37,881 bases of DNA from positions 1 through 37,881 of the forward strand of contig JAAESS010000342.1 of NCBI GenBank assembly GCA_024229195.1, read 5' to 3'. The stretch comes from Flavobacteriales bacterium. GTDB taxonomy: Bacteria; Bacteroidota; Bacteroidia; Flavobacteriales; Flavobacteriaceae. The notes beneath the pieces were generated by a model. It had not been told where the DNA came from. It did no database searches and saw only the letters and a program-made list of their open reading frames with translations. Of this stretch, positions 3,001 through 25,728 are shown one piece after another (within the stretch, counting starts at the first letter, position 1; the number at the start of each line of letters is the position of its first letter). The position numbers and the translations under genes are program-made.

Positions 3001-3024
3001 AAGGGACGATTCAAATCGTCCCTT
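3001..3024. terminator. Bidirectional rho-independent terminator
   Basis: AAGGGACGAT-TCAA-ATCGTCCCTT hairpin flanked by A and T tracts, between convergent genes. Confidence 0.9.
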
Positions 3025-14900: not shown

Positions 14901-15590
14901 TTAATAACCCTCTGTGAGATGTTGTAATTTCACTTTGTTTTCTATCCTGATCTTTTTTCCAGCCAGAGAAATATAACTTTCCTTTTTAAATTCTGAAAGC
15001 AAACGGATCGTTGATTCCGTTGCAGTACCAATGGCATTTGCAATTTCCTCTCGAGTAAGCGTTACTGATATATATCCTTCGTTATCAACACCAAATATTC
15101 TTTCAAAAAACAACAGAGATTCTGCCAATCTCTCTCTTACATTTTTCTGTGCCATGTTGGCGATGGAAGAGTTGGCCTCATCAAGATCTTCAGCCAAAGA
15201 TTTTGTGATTCCCATTGAAAACTCCGTGTTGTTTTTAAATAATTCTATGATTTCATTTTTTGGAATAAAACAGACATCCATTTCTTCTAAAGCTGTGACT
15301 GTAAGATGCGCTACTGAATTACTGATCACCGATCTATGGCCAACCAGTTCTCCTCTTCTGATAAATCTGACTATTTGTTCTTTACCATTTGGAGCTAGTT
15401 TTGTTAATTTACACTTTCCATTTCTCAAACAGTAAACTCCTCTTAATGAAGCTCCTTCACTAAATATAACCTCTCCTTTCTGAACATGTAGTGCTGATTT
15501 TTTCTTAGCTATGGATTTAAGTTCTTCAGACGTAATAGAATTTAGCGAATTAAGATCCCTGATGACGCATTTTTCACATTCTTCTCTCAT
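14901..15590 (-). CDS. Crp/Fnr family transcriptional regulator
   Basis: Cyclic-nucleotide-binding-like fold (KGEVIFSEGASLRGVYCLRNGKCKL) and HTH (LTREEIANAIGTATESTIRLLSEFKK); N-terminal MREECEKC. Confidence 0.93.
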   Translation of the reverse strand: MREECEKCVIRDLNSLNSITSEELKSIAKKKSALHVQKGEVIFSEGASLRGVYCLRNGKCKLTKLAPNGKEQIVRFIRRGELVGHRSVISNSVAHLTVTALEEMDVCFIPKNEIIELFKNNTEFSMGITKSLAEDLDEANSSIANMAQKNVRERLAESLLFFERIFGVDNEGYISVTLTREEIANAIGTATESTIRLLSEFKKESYISLAGKKIRIENKVKLQHLTEGY

Positions 15591-15619: not shown

Positions 15620-15693
15620 TATAAATTCTGACAGCATTCATTTTTTTATGTAATTTTTTTATAAGAACTTTACGCAATTTTCCAAAAATATCT

Positions 15694-18069
15694 ATGTCAA
15701 AAGATAACTGCTACCACTGCGGTCTTGATTGTAATACGGATAGAATTGAATTTGATGAAAAATCATTTTGCTGTAACGGTTGTAGGACTGTTTATGAAAT
15801 TCTTAATGTACACGAGTTGACCGGTTATTATGATTTAGAATCCGCTCCAGGAACGGTTCCGAATGATATTAAAGGGAAATTTGACTATCTGAATAATCAG
15901 GATATTGCATCAAAACTGATTGAATTTGATGACCTGGAAACGGCTGTTGCAAATTTCTATGTTCCTACCATCCACTGTAGCTCATGTATTTGGGTACTCG
16001 AAAATTTACATAAGCTAAACAGCGGAGTTAAAATTGCTCTTGTAAATTTTCCCAAGAAAGAAGTACGAATTACATTTCGTAAAAGTGAGATTTCTCTCCA
16101 GCAAGTGGTTGAATTAATTGCCTCTATCGGCTATGAACCTTATATAAGCCTCGACAATGCAGATATTCACGAAAAAAAGATCGATCGAAAGCTGATTTAT
16201 CAAGTTGCTGTTGCCGGATTTGCCTTCGGTAATATTATGATGTTGTCATTTCCTGAATATTTCCAGATGGATGAGTACTGGCTAAACAGATTTAAACCTT
16301 TTTTCAGAGGATTAATGTTTTTATTGGCCCTACCTGCTTTGCTATATTCCGGAAGAGACTATTTGACATCCGCCTATAAAGGGCTGAAGCATGGCATCTT
16401 AAATATCGATGTTCCGATATCATTGGGTATTCTGGTATTATTTTTAAGAAGTACTTATGAGATCATAAGTAACGCAGGGCAAGGCTATTTTGATAGTATG
16501 ACCGGACTGATTTTCTTTTTACTTCTCGGTAAAGTTTTTCAACAAAAAACATATGGTTTTTTATCTTTTGAAAGAGATTATAAGTCCTATTTTCCAATAG
16601 CAGTAACCCGAATTATAGCTGATCAAAAAGAAGAAAATATTAGTGTTCATGAAATCGAACAGGGCAACCGTTTACTGATCAGAAATGAAGAGATCATTCC
16701 GGTTGACTGCATACTGATCAATGGGGACGCCATGATAGACTATAGCTTTGTTACCGGAGAATCAATTCCTGTTTCAAAAAAATCAGGAGATAAACTTTTT
16801 GCAGGCGGAAAACAAACAAGCGGAGCTATTGAAATTGAAGCCATACAATCTGTAAAGTCAAGTTACCTGACTCAATTATGGAGTAAAGATGTTTTCAAAA
16901 AAACCGATTCTAAGGATATCAAATCATTGACCGATTCTATTTCTAAACAGTTTACCATTGTTATTTTATCAATTGCACTTATATCTGGTGTCTATTGGTA
17001 TTTTATAGATAAAAGTGCAGCCTTTCAGGTTGTTTCAGCCATTCTGATCATCGCCTGCCCTTGTGCCCTAGCCTTATCTGCTCCCTTTGCCCTTGGAAAT
17101 ATGATCAGGATCTTTGGCAAGGAAAAGTTTTATTTAAAAAACACCAGCGTGATCGAGGCGATGTCAAAAATAGATAGTCTGGTCTTTGACAAAACAGGTA
17201 CAATCACCTCTAACAGAAAAGCGGAGATTAGCTTTCAGGGAGAAAAACTTGAAGAAAAAGAATTGAGTATGATCAAAACCCTCCTTCGTTCATCGAACCA
17301 TCCTTTGAGCAGAATGCTATACCATCACATCAAGCAGAAAGAACAGGGAAAACTAAGCAATTTCAAAGAGATTACATCTCAAGGAATTCAAGGCGATATT
17401 GATGGTTTAAGCATTGTTCTGGGAGCAGCTTCATTGGTTGGTATTGTTGAAAAAAAGAGTCTAGATACCGTGATTCACGTAAGGATTGACAAAGAGATAA
17501 AAGGAAAGTTCATTTTTAAAAATGCATATAGAAAAGGTTTAACAAATACCATTCACTCTCTGGAACAATCGTATCGAGTTTCTGTGCTGTCGGGTGATAA
17601 TGAAGGAGAAAAAGTGAGTTTACAATCACAATTTCCAAATATGGATGAATTGCTTTTCAATCAGAAACCTGAGGACAAACTTGATTATATCCAATCAAAT
17701 CAGGAAAATGGAAATAAAATCATGATGCTTGGGGATGGTCTTAATGATGCAGGCGCACTTGCGCAAAGCAATGTCGGTGTTGCAGTATCAGAAGACATTA
17801 ATGTTTTTTCTCCAGCATGTGATGCCATACTTGATGCCCACAGTTTTGAACTGCTTCCTGATTTTTTAAAATTGACGCATAAGACGATGGGCGTCATTAA
17901 AGTGAGTTTTGTGATCTCTTTTTTATACAATATCATTGGTCTTCTATTTGCCGTTAGTGGCAACCTCTCTCCTATTATAGCTGCCATACTAATGCCAATA
18001 AGTTCAATATCAGTAGTTTTATTTGCCACAATAAGTACTAACATTTTAGCAAAAAAAATACTACAATAG
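15694..18069 (+). CDS. ccoI: Heavy-metal P-type ATPase, cbb3 oxidase copper transporter (CcoI/FixI)
   Basis: HMA motif HCSSC, CPC motif IACPCALALSAP, DKTGTIT, GDGLNDAGAL; adjacent to the cbb3 genes. Confidence 0.94.
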   Translation: MSKDNCYHCGLDCNTDRIEFDEKSFCCNGCRTVYEILNVHELTGYYDLESAPGTVPNDIKGKFDYLNNQDIASKLIEFDDLETAVANFYVPTIHCSSCIWVLENLHKLNSGVKIALVNFPKKEVRITFRKSEISLQQVVELIASIGYEPYISLDNADIHEKKIDRKLIYQVAVAGFAFGNIMMLSFPEYFQMDEYWLNRFKPFFRGLMFLLALPALLYSGRDYLTSAYKGLKHGILNIDVPISLGILVLFLRSTYEIISNAGQGYFDSMTGLIFFLLLGKVFQQKTYGFLSFERDYKSYFPIAVTRIIADQKEENISVHEIEQGNRLLIRNEEIIPVDCILINGDAMIDYSFVTGESIPVSKKSGDKLFAGGKQTSGAIEIEAIQSVKSSYLTQLWSKDVFKKTDSKDIKSLTDSISKQFTIVILSIALISGVYWYFIDKSAAFQVVSAILIIACPCALALSAPFALGNMIRIFGKEKFYLKNTSVIEAMSKIDSLVFDKTGTITSNRKAEISFQGEKLEEKELSMIKTLLRSSNHPLSRMLYHHIKQKEQGKLSNFKEITSQGIQGDIDGLSIVLGAASLVGIVEKKSLDTVIHVRIDKEIKGKFIFKNAYRKGLTNTIHSLEQSYRVSVLSGDNEGEKVSLQSQFPNMDELLFNQKPEDKLDYIQSNQENGNKIMMLGDGLNDAGALAQSNVGVAVSEDINVFSPACDAILDAHSFELLPDFLKLTHKTMGVIKVSFVISFLYNIIGLLFAVSGNLSPIIAAILMPISSISVVLFATISTNILAKKILQ

Positions 18070-18098: not shown

Positions 18099-18120
18099 AA
18101 ACATGACATTTATCATGTTT
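18099..18120. promoter_or_regulatory. Candidate Crp/Fnr-family operator upstream of the cbb3 operon
   Basis: Perfect palindrome AAACATGA-CATTTA-TCATGTTT (8-bp arms, 6-nt spacer), i.e. TGA-N6-TCA spacing. Confidence 0.65.
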
Positions 18121-18167
18121 CTGTTTTATCAATTTTTGTTAATTTGTGTAAACTAAAAAAATCAGTA

Positions 18168-18362
18168 ATGAATATCATATTCATGCTTATCATTGCAAGT
18201 CTGTTTATTGCAATCATATTTTTTGTGCTTTTCGTTAAATCGGTCAAGACCGGTCAGTATGATGATGTATACACTCCGTCTGTCAGAATGCTGTTTGATG
18301 ACGAATTGGTCGACAGCACGTTATCCAAAAAAAAAATAATCAAAAATCAACCAACCAAATAA
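18168..18362 (+). CDS. ccoS: cbb3-type cytochrome oxidase assembly protein CcoS
   Basis: MNIIFMLIIASLFIAIIFFVLFVKSVKTGQYDDVYTPSVRMLFDDE is CcoS-like; start at 18168 preferred. Confidence 0.88.
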   Translation: MNIIFMLIIASLFIAIIFFVLFVKSVKTGQYDDVYTPSVRMLFDDELVDSTLSKKKIIKNQPTK

Positions 18363-18379: not shown

Positions 18380-20524
18380 ATGGAAAAAGAACAATTTTAT
18401 TACGATAACAAAATAGTAAAAATGTTCCTTATTGCTACCATCCTTTGGGGTGTAGTAGGTATGCTGGTAGGGCTAATTGTGGCACTGCTTTTCATTTTCC
18501 CGAATCTACTTGAGGGTATTTCATGGTTAAGCTTTGGGCGTTTAAGACCATTGCATACCAATGCTGTGATATTTGCATTCGTTGGAAATAGCATTTTTAT
18601 GGGAATTTACTACTCAATGCAACGCTTGTTAAAAACAAGAATGTTTAGTGACACCCTGAGTAAAATACATTTTTGGGGATGGCAATTAATAATTGTTTCA
18701 GCAGCCCTGACACTTCCTTTAGGTATTACCAGCTCTAAGGAATACGCAGAACTGGAATGGCCAATAGACATTGCCATTACCTTGATTTGGATTGTGATGG
18801 GAATCAATATTATCGGTACGATTCTGAAAAGAAGACAACGCCATATTTATGTGGCAATCTGGTTTTATTTAGCCACTTTGATCACGGTTGCAGTACTGCA
18901 TATCTTTAACAATCTCGAATTACCTGTATCAGCGTTTAAGAGTTATTCAATATACGCTGGTGTACAAGATGCTCTGGTTCAATGGTGGTATGGTCATAAT
19001 GCTGTTGCCTTTTTTCTAACAACACCTGTTTTAGGGCTCATGTATTATTTCGTACCAAAAGTTGCCAACAGACCTGTCTATTCCTACAGACTATCTATAA
19101 TTCATTTCTGGTCTTTGATTTTTATTTATATCTGGGCTGGACCTCACCATTTATTGTATACAGCTTTACCAGAATGGGCTCAAAATCTTGGAACCGTATT
19201 TTCAGTGATGCTTATTTTCCCTTCTTGGGGAGGTATGATCAATGGATTATTAACGCTAAGAGGTGCCTGGGATAAAGTCAGAGAAGATCCTATTCTCAAG
19301 TTTTTTGTTGTAGCGATTACGGGTTATGGTATGTCTACCTTTGAAGGGCCTATGTTGTCCTTTAAAACACTGAATGCAATCGGACATTATACTGACTGGA
19401 TCATAGGTCACGTTCATATCGGTGCACTTGCATGGAATGGATTTATGGCTGCAGGTATTATCTATTGGCTGGCAGCTAAACTTTGGAAAACCGAGCTATT
19501 CTCAAAAAAATTAGCAAATATCCATTTTTGGTTAGGTACCCTTGGAATATTATTCTATGCGCTTCCTCTTTATGTAGCAGGTTTTACACAGGCTGCCATG
19601 TGGAAACAATTTAATCCTGACGGAACTTTACTATATGGCAACTTCCTTGAAACTGTTACTCAAATTATGCCGATGTATATGATGAGAGCCTTTGGAGGAA
19701 CTTTGTACCTCGCCGGTTTCATTATATTGGCCTACAACATCATTAGAACGGCTCAAGCCGGATCTGCTGTTGAAGATGAATTAGCTGAAGCAGCACCTCT
19801 TAAGAAAATTTCATCTGCCAGAATTGCCGGAGAAGGTTTTCATTCCTGGTTAGAACGAAGAACCATTTTATTCTCGTTCCTTGTTGTGATAGCTATAGTT
19901 ATTGGAGGTGCAGTAGAGATTATTCCTTTATTAACTGTTGATTCAAACATTCCTAAAATTACTTCGGTAAAACCTTATACACCTCTTGAATTGGAAGGAA
20001 GAGATATTTATATCAGGGAAGGATGTAACAACTGTCACTCACAGATGATCAGACCTTTCAGATCAGAGGTTGAACGTTACGGAGAATATTCAAAAGCAGG
20101 AGAATTTGTTTATGATTTTCCATTCTTGTGGGGATCTAAAAGAACTGGTCCTGATGTGCATCGTATAGGTGGTAAATACAATGATAATTGGCACTTTAAT
20201 CATATGCTTGATCCAAGATCAACTTCTCCAGGATCAATTATGCCTCAGTATCCGTGGTTGATCACAGATGATTTGGATATATCAAAAACAATAGATAAGG
20301 TAAATGCAATGGTGACTCTGGGTGTTCCTTATACTCAGTTCGAACTTGATAAAGCCTTGTATTTATTGAAAAATCAGGCAAAAGAAATTGAAAATAATTT
20401 GAGACAGGATCCTGAATTTGTGAAAAATTATGGTGATGCTCAGATTGAAAATAAGGAAATTGTGGCCATGATTGCTTATTTACAGCGATTAGGAACGGAT
20501 ATTAAAGCTGAAACAGCAGAATAA
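18380..20524 (+). CDS. ccoNO: cbb3-type cytochrome c oxidase, fused subunits I and II
   Basis: N-terminal CcoN (GRLRPLHTNAVIFAF, WWYGHNAVAFFLTTPVLGLMYYF, GHVHIGALAWNGF) joined to CcoO with EGCNNCHSQMIRPF and GPDVHRIGGKYNDNWHFNHMLDPRS. Confidence 0.97.
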   Translation: MEKEQFYYDNKIVKMFLIATILWGVVGMLVGLIVALLFIFPNLLEGISWLSFGRLRPLHTNAVIFAFVGNSIFMGIYYSMQRLLKTRMFSDTLSKIHFWGWQLIIVSAALTLPLGITSSKEYAELEWPIDIAITLIWIVMGINIIGTILKRRQRHIYVAIWFYLATLITVAVLHIFNNLELPVSAFKSYSIYAGVQDALVQWWYGHNAVAFFLTTPVLGLMYYFVPKVANRPVYSYRLSIIHFWSLIFIYIWAGPHHLLYTALPEWAQNLGTVFSVMLIFPSWGGMINGLLTLRGAWDKVREDPILKFFVVAITGYGMSTFEGPMLSFKTLNAIGHYTDWIIGHVHIGALAWNGFMAAGIIYWLAAKLWKTELFSKKLANIHFWLGTLGILFYALPLYVAGFTQAAMWKQFNPDGTLLYGNFLETVTQIMPMYMMRAFGGTLYLAGFIILAYNIIRTAQAGSAVEDELAEAAPLKKISSARIAGEGFHSWLERRTILFSFLVVIAIVIGGAVEIIPLLTVDSNIPKITSVKPYTPLELEGRDIYIREGCNNCHSQMIRPFRSEVERYGEYSKAGEFVYDFPFLWGSKRTGPDVHRIGGKYNDNWHFNHMLDPRSTSPGSIMPQYPWLITDDLDISKTIDKVNAMVTLGVPYTQFELDKALYLLKNQAKEIENNLRQDPEFVKNYGDAQIENKEIVAMIAYLQRLGTDIKAETAE

Positions 20525-20535
20525 AAGATATTGAT

Positions 20536-20727
20536 ATGTTAAAATACATAAAACATCATTTAGATACTATTTCGGGAGTTGAAATATATCCAATCATATC
20601 GCTGCTACTCTTTTTTATAGTCTTTGCAACAATGCTGATCATTGTTCTGAAGATGCCAAAAAAGAATATTGAGAAACTAAGCAATTTACCATTGGATAAC
20701 GATCTAAAAAATACACACCATGAGTGA
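20536..20727 (+). CDS. ccoQ: CcoQ-like small cbb3 subunit
   Basis: 63-aa single-TM protein between ccoNO and ccoP. Confidence 0.75.
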   Translation: MLKYIKHHLDTISGVEIYPIISLLLFFIVFATMLIIVLKMPKKNIEKLSNLPLDNDLKNTHHE

Positions 20728-21358
20728 TCAAAAAAAAATAAGTGGTTGGAAAAAATTCATTCACTCACTTACCAAGGCACACGAACTTGGTAAGGAGGAA
20801 GAAATCATGACTGATCACGATTATGACGGAATTAAAGAATTAGACAACGTACTTCCGCCTTGGTGGAAATATGGTTTCTACATCACCATTGCAATTGGTA
20901 TATTTTACTATATCCAAGTCTTCACCAACTCAGAAGAGTACAGTCAGGAAAAGGAATATGCGGCAGAAGTTGAAAAAGGAAAACAAGAAGTTGAGGCCTA
21001 TAAAGCTGCTAATCCTGATTTATTCAAACTTGACGTAACCCTATTGACAGATGACACAAGTCTTGCAGCCGGTAAAAAGAGTTTTGACGCCTATTGTGTT
21101 GCATGTCATATGGCAGATGGAGGAGGTGGAATTGGACCAAACCTAACAGATGATCAATGGATCCTAGGTGGTGGTATGGAAAATATTCTTAAAACCCTTA
21201 ATGAAGGTGGTAGAGCCGGTAAGGGTATGATTTCTTGGAAAAATACATTTAATAATGATGAACTTCAGCAACTTGCCAGCTATGTGATTACATTGAATGG
21301 CACAACACCTGCCAATCCTAAGGCAGCTGAAGGAGATATCATTTGGAGCAAACAGTAG
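20720..21358 (+). CDS. ccoP: cbb3-type cytochrome c oxidase subunit III, single heme-c motif
   Basis: DNVLPPWWKYGFYITIAIGIFYYI N-terminal TM and one CVACH heme motif with GPNLTDDQWILGGG; overlaps ccoQ. Confidence 0.94.
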   Translation: MSDQKKISGWKKFIHSLTKAHELGKEEEIMTDHDYDGIKELDNVLPPWWKYGFYITIAIGIFYYIQVFTNSEEYSQEKEYAAEVEKGKQEVEAYKAANPDLFKLDVTLLTDDTSLAAGKKSFDAYCVACHMADGGGGIGPNLTDDQWILGGGMENILKTLNEGGRAGKGMISWKNTFNNDELQQLASYVITLNGTTPANPKAAEGDIIWSKQ

Positions 21359-21482: not shown

Positions 21483-22883
21483 ATGCAAGAACAAGAAAAT
21501 TTTAGAGACAGTATTGCGACTATTGATCAGGAAGGTAAGCGAAATTTTATCCACCCTCAAAAACCAAAAGGTCAGTACACCAATTATCGAACTTATGTTA
21601 GCTGGTTCTTACTAGCCATCTTATTTGCCTCTCCTTTTATCAAAATAAACGGAAATCAATTTTTACTGTTTAATATCATTGATCGTAAGTTCAATATTTT
21701 TGGGCAACCATTTTGGCCCCAAGATTTTTATTTACTGGTCATGTCTTTGTTGGTATCAGTTGTTTTTATCATACTCTTCACGGTGATTTTTGGCCGTATC
21801 TTTTGTGGATGGATGTGTCCGCAAACGATTTTTATGGAAATGATATTTCGTAAAATCGAATTCTGGATCGAAGGAGATCGCAACAAGCAGATAAAACTCG
21901 ACAAACAAGAATGGAATGCTGAAAAAATAAGAAAAAAAACAATAAAGTGGTTCTTATTTGCCATTGTCTCATTTTTTATCGCTAACGCATTTTTAGCTTA
22001 TTTTATTGGAGGAGACACCCTTATTCAACATATCAAAGATGGTCCGATTGCCCATGTTGACACCTTTGTTAAACTTTTGGTATTTACGTCTGTTTTTTAT
22101 TTTGTTTTCGCCTGGTTCAGAGAGCAGGTATGTATTATTGCTTGTCCTTATGGCCGATTACAAAGCGTTTTACTGGACAATAAATCAATCGTTGTGGCCT
22201 ATGACCACAAACGAGGAGAAAACAGACAAAAACTTCGAAAGAATGAAGATCGAAAGGAAAAAGAGTTCGGAGATTGTATCGATTGTAAACAATGTGTACT
22301 GGTGTGTCCGACTGGAATAGATATCAGAAATGGGACCCAATTAGAATGTGTTAACTGCACAGCATGTATAGATGCCTGTGATTCGATGATGGATCGTGTC
22401 GGTTTTGACAGAGGTCTCATAAGATATGCCTCTGAAAATAATATTGAAAAAGGTGAAAAATTCACTTATAATACACGGATCATAAGTTATATCGTCGTTT
22501 TGACCCTGCTCTTCTCCTTTTTCGTAACTTTATTGTTTCTTCGGAATGACGTGCAAGCCAACTTATTGCACCTGCCAGGGCAATTATATACAACTGAAGG
22601 TGAAGAAGTTAGTAACGTTTATACGTTTAAACTCATCAATAAGACCAATGATACTTTTGAGGATATTAAAATTCGCTTAATGTCACATGAAGGAAAAATT
22701 GAAGTAGTCGGAGGACAGATAAATATTCCAAAAGGAGGTCTATATGAAGGTACATTGTTTATCAAAATCAATAAAGAGAACCTGTCAGACTCCAAGGAAA
22801 AAGTTAATATCGGAATTTATGCAGATGAAGCGTTGATTGAAGAAACACACACCAATTTCTCTTCTCCACTGCAAATTAAATAA
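21483..22883 (+). CDS. ccoG: cbb3 oxidase accessory ferredoxin-like protein CcoG/RdxA
   Basis: FCGWMCPQTIFMEMIFRKIE, CIDCKQCVLVCPTGIDIRNGTQLECVNCTACIDACD, C-terminal Ig-like domain. Confidence 0.96.
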   Translation: MQEQENFRDSIATIDQEGKRNFIHPQKPKGQYTNYRTYVSWFLLAILFASPFIKINGNQFLLFNIIDRKFNIFGQPFWPQDFYLLVMSLLVSVVFIILFTVIFGRIFCGWMCPQTIFMEMIFRKIEFWIEGDRNKQIKLDKQEWNAEKIRKKTIKWFLFAIVSFFIANAFLAYFIGGDTLIQHIKDGPIAHVDTFVKLLVFTSVFYFVFAWFREQVCIIACPYGRLQSVLLDNKSIVVAYDHKRGENRQKLRKNEDRKEKEFGDCIDCKQCVLVCPTGIDIRNGTQLECVNCTACIDACDSMMDRVGFDRGLIRYASENNIEKGEKFTYNTRIISYIVVLTLLFSFFVTLLFLRNDVQANLLHLPGQLYTTEGEEVSNVYTFKLINKTNDTFEDIKIRLMSHEGKIEVVGGQINIPKGGLYEGTLFIKINKENLSDSKEKVNIGIYADEALIEETHTNFSSPLQIK

Positions 22884-22898
22884 ACAACAAATAAGTAT

Positions 22899-23351
22899 AT
22901 GAAGTTACGATTCAATTGGGGTACGGGAATAGTTATAGCGATGCTCGCTTTTATGATTTTTATTCTATCCTTCGTCTATAAATCGATAGCAATGGATGAA
23001 TACCAGCATGAATTGGTATCAGAAGATTATTACAAGGATGAACTTCATTATCAAGAAGAAATCGATAAAATGAACAACTCCAGTTCCTTATCCAAAAATA
23101 TTGAACTGGTTAATTCAAAAGAGGGAATTTTAGTTACTTTTCCTGAGGATATTGATCAAGAATCGATTGTAGGTTCCATTTATTTTCAGAGGCTTTCAAA
23201 TGAAAAACTTGATTTTACTGAACAGATCAAACTTACTGACCATCATCAATTGATCCCTGTTGAAAAACTGGTTTCAGGAAAATGGATCATTAAAATAGAT
23301 TGGGAATCCGAACAGAGGGAATATCTTTTTAAAGAAACCTGGTTCTATTAA
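22899..23351 (+). CDS. ccoH: FixH/CcoH family protein
   Basis: WGTGIVIAMLAFMIFILSFVYKSI TM start and LVSEDYYKDELHYQEEIDK motif. Confidence 0.9.
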   Translation: MKLRFNWGTGIVIAMLAFMIFILSFVYKSIAMDEYQHELVSEDYYKDELHYQEEIDKMNNSSSLSKNIELVNSKEGILVTFPEDIDQESIVGSIYFQRLSNEKLDFTEQIKLTDHHQLIPVEKLVSGKWIIKIDWESEQREYLFKETWFY

Positions 23352-24073
23352 TTGTTAAGATTATTTTATATACTGCACTCATATTAGGATTATTAGGAAG
23401 CTTTCACTGTATTGGCATGTGTGGGCCCATAGCCTTTGTTTTACCGGTAAACAAAAGCAATAAGCTTCAGACTTTTATTGGAACAGGTCTTTACCATATA
23501 GGCAGACTTTTAAGTTATAGCATCATTGGATTGTTATTCGGGCTTCTCGGACGAGGACTTTATCTGGCTGGTTTTCAACAACGTTTATCTATTCTGATTG
23601 GAGTAATCATGATTTTAATGGTCCTGATCCCAACCAAATTTTTGAGTCGATTTCAAGTGACAAGACCACTTTACCAACTTATTGGAAAAGTAAAATATAA
23701 ATTGGGTTTATACCTTAATAAAAGCTCTAATAAAGCCCTTTTCTCGATAGGTTTTTTTAATGGATTTCTGCCATGTGGATTGGTCTACATGGCATTACTG
23801 GGAGCTATTTCTACCGGTGACCTCATTGACGGTGCTGCTTATATGGCGGTCTTCGGGCTTGGTACAATACCTTTAATGACAGGCGCTGTATTCTTAGGTA
23901 ATTTTTTAAAAGTTTCTGTCAGGAATAAAATTCAAAAAGCAATTCCTATCTTTGTCGTTATCATAGGACTCTTATTTATTTTAAGAGGCTTGGGGCTTGG
24001 AATTCCTTATGTTTCTCCAACCGACACCCAGCTGCTCATTTCCAATGATCCAAATGCATGCGTAACAGAATGA
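23351..24073 (+). CDS. Sulfite exporter TauE/SafE family protein of the cbb3 locus; start codon uncertain
   Basis: In-frame N-terminus KIILYTALILGLLGSFHCIGMCGPIAFVLP extends upstream of the ORF-track Met (23417); no ATG/GTG/TTG back to the stop at 23330. ATT at 23351 overlaps the ccoH stop. Confidence 0.8.
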   Translation: MVKIILYTALILGLLGSFHCIGMCGPIAFVLPVNKSNKLQTFIGTGLYHIGRLLSYSIIGLLFGLLGRGLYLAGFQQRLSILIGVIMILMVLIPTKFLSRFQVTRPLYQLIGKVKYKLGLYLNKSSNKALFSIGFFNGFLPCGLVYMALLGAISTGDLIDGAAYMAVFGLGTIPLMTGAVFLGNFLKVSVRNKIQKAIPIFVVIIGLLFILRGLGLGIPYVSPTDTQLLISNDPNACVTE

Positions 24074-24076
24074 TTT

Positions 24077-24940
24077 ATGAATAAAAATTTCAAAAATAAA
24101 ATTACGGCAGCCGAATTTAATTCAATAAATTCTCATGATGATCTTTTAAAGATCGTTCAAGATAAAGATATTGATATCAGTGCTGTTTTGGATAAAGTTC
24201 ATTACGAACATGAAAAGGAAAAATTACAGATAGAACTTGTCAAATTACAACAGTGGGTAAAAAAGAATAACAAACGTGTTGCCATTATTTTTGAAGGGAG
24301 AGATGCTGCCGGAAAAGGGGGCAATATCAGAAGGTTTACAGAGCATTTAAACCCGAGATCTATGCGATTGGTGGCTTTGAACAAACCAACTGATGTTGAA
24401 AGAGGACAATGGTATTTTACAAGATATATCCAACATTTACCAAACCCGGGAGAAATCGTATTTTTTGACAGATCATGGTATAATCGGGCGGTAGTTGAAC
24501 CGGTCATGGGCTTTTGTTCCCAGCGTCAATATGAGCAATTTATGGTCCAATTACCTGAATTCGAACATATGCTTTATGAAGATGGTGTGACCATTGTGAA
24601 ATTTTGGTTATCGATTACCAAAGAGGAGCAGCTCAAACGATTTGATTCAAGAGAAGACAATCCTTTAAAGAGATGGAAATTTAGCCCGGTTGATAGAAAA
24701 GGTCAGGAATACTGGGATGATTATACAAAATACAAAGAATTGATGTTCAGTAAAACGCATACTTCTTTTAGTCCTTGGATCATCGCAAAAACAAATAAAA
24801 AAGAGACTGCAAGGCTTGAATGCATGCGCTATGTACTATCGCTATTTGATTATGAGAACAAAGATGATAGCACGGTGTCTCTATTGCCTGATCCAAATGT
24901 CATCATGCGTTATTTCCGTTCCTTACACAAATACGATTAA
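24077..24940 (+). CDS. ppk2: Polyphosphate kinase 2 family protein
   Basis: FEGRDAAGKGGNIRRFTEHLNPR Walker A, FFDRSWYNRAVVEPVMGFC, NPLKRWKFSPVD. Confidence 0.93.
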   Translation: MNKNFKNKITAAEFNSINSHDDLLKIVQDKDIDISAVLDKVHYEHEKEKLQIELVKLQQWVKKNNKRVAIIFEGRDAAGKGGNIRRFTEHLNPRSMRLVALNKPTDVERGQWYFTRYIQHLPNPGEIVFFDRSWYNRAVVEPVMGFCSQRQYEQFMVQLPEFEHMLYEDGVTIVKFWLSITKEEQLKRFDSREDNPLKRWKFSPVDRKGQEYWDDYTKYKELMFSKTHTSFSPWIIAKTNKKETARLECMRYVLSLFDYENKDDSTVSLLPDPNVIMRYFRSLHKYD

Positions 24941-25728
24941 TGTTTATGGAAAATTTTTCTGAAAAAGACCTCAAAAAGCTAAATTCAAAAAAGGGCTTAT
25001 TGTCGATTCTAATGAATAAGACAATCAATTTACCGAAAACCATTCGGTATATAGACTATGAGAAAGAACTGAAAGTATTGCAAACTGAATTGATCAGACA
25101 ACAGACATGTATCATTGATGAAAATATGCGTGTTATTGTACTTTTTGAAGGAAGGGATGCTGCTGGTAAAGGTGGTGCAATTCGCCGGATTACAGAAAGG
25201 ATCAATCCACGACATTATAGAATCGTAGCGCTTCCAAGACCCACTGAAGTGGAACAAACTCAATGGTATTTTCAAAGGTACATCCAACAATTTCCTAAAG
25301 CTGGAGAAATTGTGTTTTTCGATAGAAGCTGGTATAACAGAGCTGTTGTTGAACCTGTGAATGGTTTCTGTACCGTCGAAGAATACGACATTTTCATGAA
25401 ACAGGTTAACGATTTTGAAAGGATGATTACTGAATCGGGTATACTTTTAGTTAAGATCTATATGTCTATTTCTAAAAAAGAACAAGCCAAACGTTTTGAA
25501 GACATTCGCAATAATCCATTAAAGCAATGGAAAATGAGTAAAGTAGATGAAAAGGCCCAGGAATTGTGGGATTCATATACCGATTACAAAAGTAAGATGT
25601 TCGAAAACACTGAAAAAAATTGCATTCCATTTAAGGTGATCAAAGCAAACAGAAAAACTGACGCAAGGATCGAAGTTGTTGAGCACATGCTTGAAAGCAT
25701 TCCTTATGATAAGAACAAAGAGATTTAA
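24940..25728 (+). CDS. ppk2: Polyphosphate kinase 2 family protein, tandem paralogue
   Basis: FEGRDAAGKGGAIRRITERINPR, FFDRSWYNRAVVEPVNGFC, NPLKQWKMSKVD; start overlaps the preceding stop (TAATG). Confidence 0.93.
   Translation: MFMENFSEKDLKKLNSKKGLLSILMNKTINLPKTIRYIDYEKELKVLQTELIRQQTCIIDENMRVIVLFEGRDAAGKGGAIRRITERINPRHYRIVALPRPTEVEQTQWYFQRYIQQFPKAGEIVFFDRSWYNRAVVEPVNGFCTVEEYDIFMKQVNDFERMITESGILLVKIYMSISKKEQAKRFEDIRNNPLKQWKMSKVDEKAQELWDSYTDYKSKMFENTEKNCIPFKVIKANRKTDARIEVVEHMLESIPYDKNKEI

Follow-up and report, generated by a model that had tools for sequence, protein, structure and literature searches.

A conserved Crp/Fnr-type dyad ahead of the cbb3 oxidase genes as a predicted low-oxygen operator in Flavobacteriaceae

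The cbb3 oxidase genes in the window (the whole stretch of flavobacterial DNA analysed, 37,881 nucleotides) are preceded by an inverted repeat, which raises the question of whether this repeat is a regulatory site and which protein would use it. The repeat, AAACATGACATTTATCATGTTT, occupies positions 18099-18120, with no strand assigned, between ccoI (FixI, a copper P-type ATPase; 15694-18069, plus strand; PF00122, PF12156) and ccoS (FixS; 18168-18362, plus strand; PF03597, E 1.6e-18), the first gene 3' of it. Its coordinates put it 29 bp past the ccoI stop at 18069 and 47 bp ahead of the ccoS ATG at 18168, in the intergenic position given by a previous, sequence-only reading of this DNA. Downstream, all on the plus strand, lie a ccoNO fusion encoding oxidase subunits I and II (18380-20524; PF00115, PF02433), a ccoQ-like gene (20536-20727; a weak PF05545 match, E 5e-4, under the gathering cut-off), ccoP (20720-21358; PF14715, PF13442), ccoG (FixG; 21483-22883; PF13746, PF11614), ccoH (FixH; 22899-23351; PF05751) and a gene for a DsbD_2-domain membrane protein (23417-24073; PF13386), with which the cluster ends. 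By inspection, the two adjacent genes that follow it (24077-24940 and 24940-25728) resemble tandem polyphosphate kinase 2 paralogues. The source genome is a flavobacterial draft of 3.0 Mb (completeness 90%, contamination 7%), in which ccoNO shares 83% identity with its Lutibacter oceani counterpart.

A TGA-N6-TCA arrangement is the spacing typical of Crp/Fnr operators, and the window site, with a core that reads TGAC-N4-ATCA, has it as had been claimed. The site had also been described as an exact 22-bp palindrome. Its two 8-bp arms, AAACATGA and TCATGTTT, are indeed perfectly complementary, but the 6-nt centre CATTTA is asymmetric, so that it is a perfect 8-6-8 dyad. Six such dyads occur in the window against 1.1 expected from dinucleotide shuffles, while the expected number per window drops to 0.02 once a perfect 8-6-8 dyad must also contain a TGA..TCA core. 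Because perfect dyads alone are not rare, the argument for function rests on conservation. Another perfect dyad, richer in GC (AGGGACGATTCAAATCGTCCCT, 3002-3023), lies between the 3' ends of two convergent genes and is terminator-like.

We sampled 80 named ccoNO loci plus 40 whole-genome relatives and compared 70 flavobacterial ccoS promoters. The dyad was present in 69 of them, with the consensus AAAYATGAYAWWTRTCATRTTT, in which TGA and TCA[TC] were fixed by the search pattern and the other positions converged freely. The pattern TGAYN4RTCA[TC] was found in 47 of the 49 named flavobacterial ccoS promoter windows, compared to 2.4% of random 160-nt windows from the same loci. One of two apparent exceptions, in Myroides marinus, is a second cco copy that lacks the dyad; the cco copy of this species that lies about 2.5 kb from the gene for the regulator with four conserved cysteines described below (4-Cys; G044:C19:45133-48382) has it. 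Conservation ahead of orthologous ccoS genes had been named as a check on the sequence-only reading, and the outcome favours it: the ccoS dyad is very likely a conserved operator, its function being predicted from this retention. In seven loci, from outgroup Flavobacteriales and others, two tandem dyads stand 22-24 nt apart 5' of ccoS, the downstream dyad being the closer of the two to the -7 box. In Sphingobacteriales (L075-L088) a TGA-N6-TCA dyad, often GTGAY-N4-RTCAC, lies directly 5' of ccoN at about -88 to -104.

The sequence-only reading held that the half-sites differ from those of both FNR and CRP. For CRP this stands: the flavobacterial half-site is ATGA and not TGTGA, although the TGA-N6-TCA spacing is that of the E. 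coli CRP site (TGTGA-N6-TCACA). With respect to FNR the difference is confined to the outer base, since ATGAY-N4-RTCAT retains the FNR core TGAT-N4-ATCA, which the consensus of the 69 promoters, TGAY-N4-RTCA, matches. The box of E. coli and Aliivibrio fischeri FNR, TTGAT-N4-ATCAA, shares this core and the class II position but carries an outer T, where the left arm of the flavobacterial operator has A in 52, C in 16, T in one and G in none of the 69 promoters. The outer base of the right arm is T in 68 and C in one, the search pattern permitting only these two bases there. No published flavobacterial FNR operator or motif was found in the open literature searched.

A second regularity concerns the distance to the core promoter. 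The sequence-only reading had proposed TTAATTTG (18139-18146, plus strand) as a -7 box of the Bacteroidota sigma-A type (consensus TAnnTTTG) and had placed the dyad centre near -42, as at class II activator sites. This box lies exactly 18 nt 3' of the dyad, a distance shared by most relatives: a T[AT]nnTTTG box follows the dyad at 17-19 nt in at least 57 of the 69 promoters, mostly at 18 nt, and its T and TTT are nearly invariant at this constant offset, the bases in between being little conserved. In F. psychrophilum the TAnnTTTG box has been mapped to -12 to -5 (PMC9723704), and setting the window box at the same place puts the predicted start of the ccoS-ccoNOQP-ccoGH transcript at 18151 (plus strand) and the dyad centre at -41.5, in agreement with the proposal. 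Within the window, no TTG is found 17-23 nt 5' of the -7 box, which means that a -33 element is absent, as expected for an activator-dependent promoter. Together, the centre at about -41.5, the conserved 18-nt spacing and the deduced start support a class II activator geometry for the ccoS promoter.

A candidate ligand for this site is encoded nearby. The gene at 14901-15590 (minus strand) encodes a Crp/Fnr-family regulator of 229 amino acids (PF00027, E 8e-21; PF13545, E 9e-14), whose AlphaFold2 model (pLDDT 86) matches Crp/Fnr structures, the best being 2gau (E 5e-21). As had been noted, it is divergent from ccoI; this arrangement is conserved in relatives, and the regulator gene adjoins ccoI in most loci compared. 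The gap between both genes contains a second dyad, AATTCTGACAGCATTCATTTTT (15624-15645, no strand assigned, read directly), which is degenerate, with imperfect arms, and which the motif model described below did not list in the scan of its own genome; a TGA-N6-TCA dyad is found in this gap in 32 of 33 relatives. An alignment of 39 orthologues shows four invariant cysteines, C5, C8, C54 and C107, and a recognition helix (GTATESTIRLLSEFKK in the window protein; codons of residues 188-200, GTATESTIRLLSE, at 14991-15029, minus strand) that keeps GTATE..IR..S, with G188, T189, A190, T191, E192, I195, R196 and S199 invariant. This adjacent 4-Cys protein is the likely, predicted binder of the dyad in the window genome.

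By profile score against the PDB, the regulator is closer to FNR (A. fischeri FNR, 135 bits) than to CRP (85 bits). Its best NCBIfam match is the curated Fnr model NF008365, at 96.6 bits, below the cut-off of 228. C5 and C8, which form a CxxC, align with FNR C20 and C23, and C107 with FNR C122, but the third N-terminal cysteine of FNR, C29, has no counterpart, the invariant C54 being present instead. In the recognition helix, where FNR has E-T-I-S-R, the window regulator has E-S-x-I-R: E209 and R213 of FNR are kept and S212 is replaced by I195 in all 39 orthologues. The E and R are shared with E. coli CRP as well, but the position of CRP R180 is T191 here. Because the protein falls short of the curated model and of two defining FNR features, we describe it as FNR-like, on these scores and alignments, rather than as FNR proper. 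In the AlphaFold2 model, C54 falls within the strand formed by residues 51-55 and C107 within that formed by residues 104-110. Strands at these positions are neighbours in the standard order of a jelly roll, so that C54 could, judging from the model, stand in for C29 as a cluster ligand. Oxygen sensing by a putative Fe-S cluster in the 4-Cys regulator is plausible. The protein belongs to the same Bacteroidota Crp/Fnr family as the MalR-type regulators of Bacteroides. Using the MalR matrix, Flavobacteriales Crp/Fnr homologues have been assigned to MalR-like carbon sensing (PMC8510549), whereas the sites described here precede respiratory and low-oxygen genes; the homologue of that study may not be the present orthologue.

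The sequence-only reading suggested a genome search for AACATGA-N6-TCATGTT upstream of microaerobic genes. Its exact form has two copies in the 3.0-Mb genome; one is the ccoS dyad and the other precedes a porin-like gene. Allowing up to two mismatches gave 38 places against 19 for a backwards control in the same genome, too noisy for a regulon search, and we used instead a sequence-only model, R1 (with A1), built from 60 promoters with the 18-nt spacing and run on whole genomes. R1 scores the window site at E 5e-7; matches at ccoS arise by construction and all others are independent. In the window's own genome, R1 sites with a correctly placed -7 box precede genes, checked with Pfam, for PFOR, hemA, ppdK and an FCSD/SQR-like oxidoreductase, and a site also precedes a fasciclin gene (likewise Pfam-checked). 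Further sites there, at genes named by inspection only, precede ccsBA and methylmalonyl-CoA epimerase, TonB-like and porin genes, the last three having no plain fit to an oxygen theme. Among relatives, again with names by inspection, sites were found at hemN (F. covae), nirK (Tenacibaculum discolor), hemA (Lutibacter oceani and Aequorivita), a multihaem cytochrome/ccsBA, korA, a DMSO-reductase-family enzyme, a truncated haemoglobin and uspA. Targets of FNR are alike, comprising cbb3, haem synthesis, nitrite reductase and PFOR. At E<=0.01, R1 gave no match in two Sphingobacteriales genomes against 3-14 in five Flavobacteriaceae, in a comparison with unmatched base composition. The proposed regulon agrees with what is reported for F. 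psychrophilum, where a limited oxygen supply induces cbb3 and haem biosynthesis (PMC9723704). The box also lies, in three genomes of the genus, between a gene for a fasciclin-domain lipoprotein and a divergent gene for an Rrf2-type regulator (for example L135:567-613), and in Lutibacter oceani it precedes a fasciclin gene.

We consider it highly probable that the dyad serves as a class II operator in a low-oxygen regulon of the FNR type that has a half-site of its own in Flavobacteriaceae, and that the 14901-15590 protein would bind this dyad and activate the cbb3 genes from it. On falling oxygen, a dimer of this protein would occupy ATGAY-N4-RTCAT at -41.5; once bound, it would substitute for the absent -33 element, sigma-A RNA polymerase would be recruited to the -7 box, and transcription of ccoS-ccoNOQP-ccoGH would begin near 18151. 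The conservation, the fixed spacing, the recurrence at low-oxygen genes and the arrangement and helix of the regulator are computed; we infer binding by the 4-Cys protein, activation, oxygen as the signal and a sensing cluster held by C5, C8, C54 and C107.

Another protein could also use this operator. Many of these genomes encode a hybrid of a receiver domain and a CRP module (REC-CRP), and the operator could be real with REC-CRP, phosphorylated by a neighbouring PAS histidine kinase, as its main activator and the 4-Cys protein acting secondarily or elsewhere. Eight dyad-bearing genomes have REC-CRP and no 4-Cys regulator and still retain the dyad at ccoS, so that the box is not exclusive to the 4-Cys protein; in most of the REC-CRP-only genomes read, moreover, the REC-CRP helix is ATESLIR, with the same contact residues as the ATESxIR of the 4-Cys regulator. 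Several genomes carry a cassette of PAS kinase, REC-CRP, uspA and hemN, in which R1 sites precede uspA. Eighteen dyad-bearing genomes, on the other hand, have the 4-Cys protein with no detectable REC-CRP, and 19, including the window genome, have both (in draft genomes a gene may merely seem to be missing). The single REC-CRP of the window genome (G000:C268) has a diverged helix, AKETLTR, unlike ATESxIR, which makes the adjacent 4-Cys protein the better candidate for binding here. The REC-CRP-only sites lean to TGAC-N4-GTCA, with the inner G in 8/8 against 7/18 in genomes with the 4-Cys protein only, kinship being ignored in these counts. We therefore regard REC-CRP as an unlikely main activator at the window promoter. 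The suggestion that the divergent half-site could define the motif of the adjacent regulator is to be corrected in one respect: with eight genomes having REC-CRP in its place, the motif is not that protein's alone.

Some features of the REC-CRP loci are of interest by themselves. The cassette of PAS histidine kinase, REC-CRP and uspA, in some cases with hemN, was seen in five loci (for example L040:16501-20608), and its kinase matches the NCBIfam FixL model weakly (103.6 bits, cut-off 850). Mangrovimonas, the second apparent exception to the ccoS dyad, has REC-CRP only, with a divergent helix; its ccoS lacks the dyad and a site precedes uspA. In the Sphingobacteriales loci mentioned above the REC-CRP helix is SETVSR, and the outer base of the operator (GTGAY there) and the REC-CRP helix may covary. 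In the rhizobial FixLJ-FixK2 system, with its FixK boxes, a Crp/Fnr-type protein likewise activates fixNOQP (cbb3) under microoxia, and a PAS kinase and a response regulator feed a CRP-type activator in a similar way. The flavobacterial alternative differs from it in having the receiver domain fused to the CRP module, and the window regulator in having conserved cysteines of its own.

The same regulator might instead repress from the ccoS site. Dyads at a constant 67 nt from the sucA start and at 37-38 nt from a coxIII-like gene (three genomes each) stand in another orientation or place relative to their genes, a placement that hints at possible repression of aerobic genes. At ccoS, repression is very improbable, given the centre at -41.5, the absence of a -33 TTG and the low-oxygen induction of cbb3 in F. 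psychrophilum (PMC9723704). An equally remote reading is that the repeat closes the ccoI transcript as an intrinsic terminator or a hairpin in the RNA. The repeat does follow the ccoI stop by 29 bp, with an 8-bp stem of -6.6 kcal/mol and a T-rich stretch after it; this stem, however, is weak and AT-rich, the repeat keeps a constant distance from the -7 box and recurs before unrelated genes, and we rejected this reading because the dyad also occurs in six loci without ccoI directly upstream. A chance dyad without function, conceivable in that about one perfect 8-6-8 dyad arises by chance in such a window and six are found here, is refuted by the retention of both its sequence and its position in 69/70 ccoS promoters, and is the least probable reading of all.

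A broader proposal is more tentative, and we put it at somewhat below even: that Flavobacteriaceae possess an FNR-like sensor with rearranged Fe-S ligands (the CxxC, C54 in strand 3 and C107 in strand 8) and a shifted operator, ATGAY as opposed to TTGAT, which REC-CRP can take over in lineages without the sensor. If this were true, a single operator network would be served by two interchangeable sensor designs, a 4-Cys sensor and a kinase-driven REC-CRP, raising the question of how Fe-S ligands are relocated and sensors exchanged on a conserved operator. For gene control at low oxygen in Flavobacteriaceae, the analysis yields a family-wide operator motif, a promoter geometry and a candidate regulator, with which it becomes testable whether oxygen regulates the genes for cbb3, haem synthesis, denitrification and fermentation.
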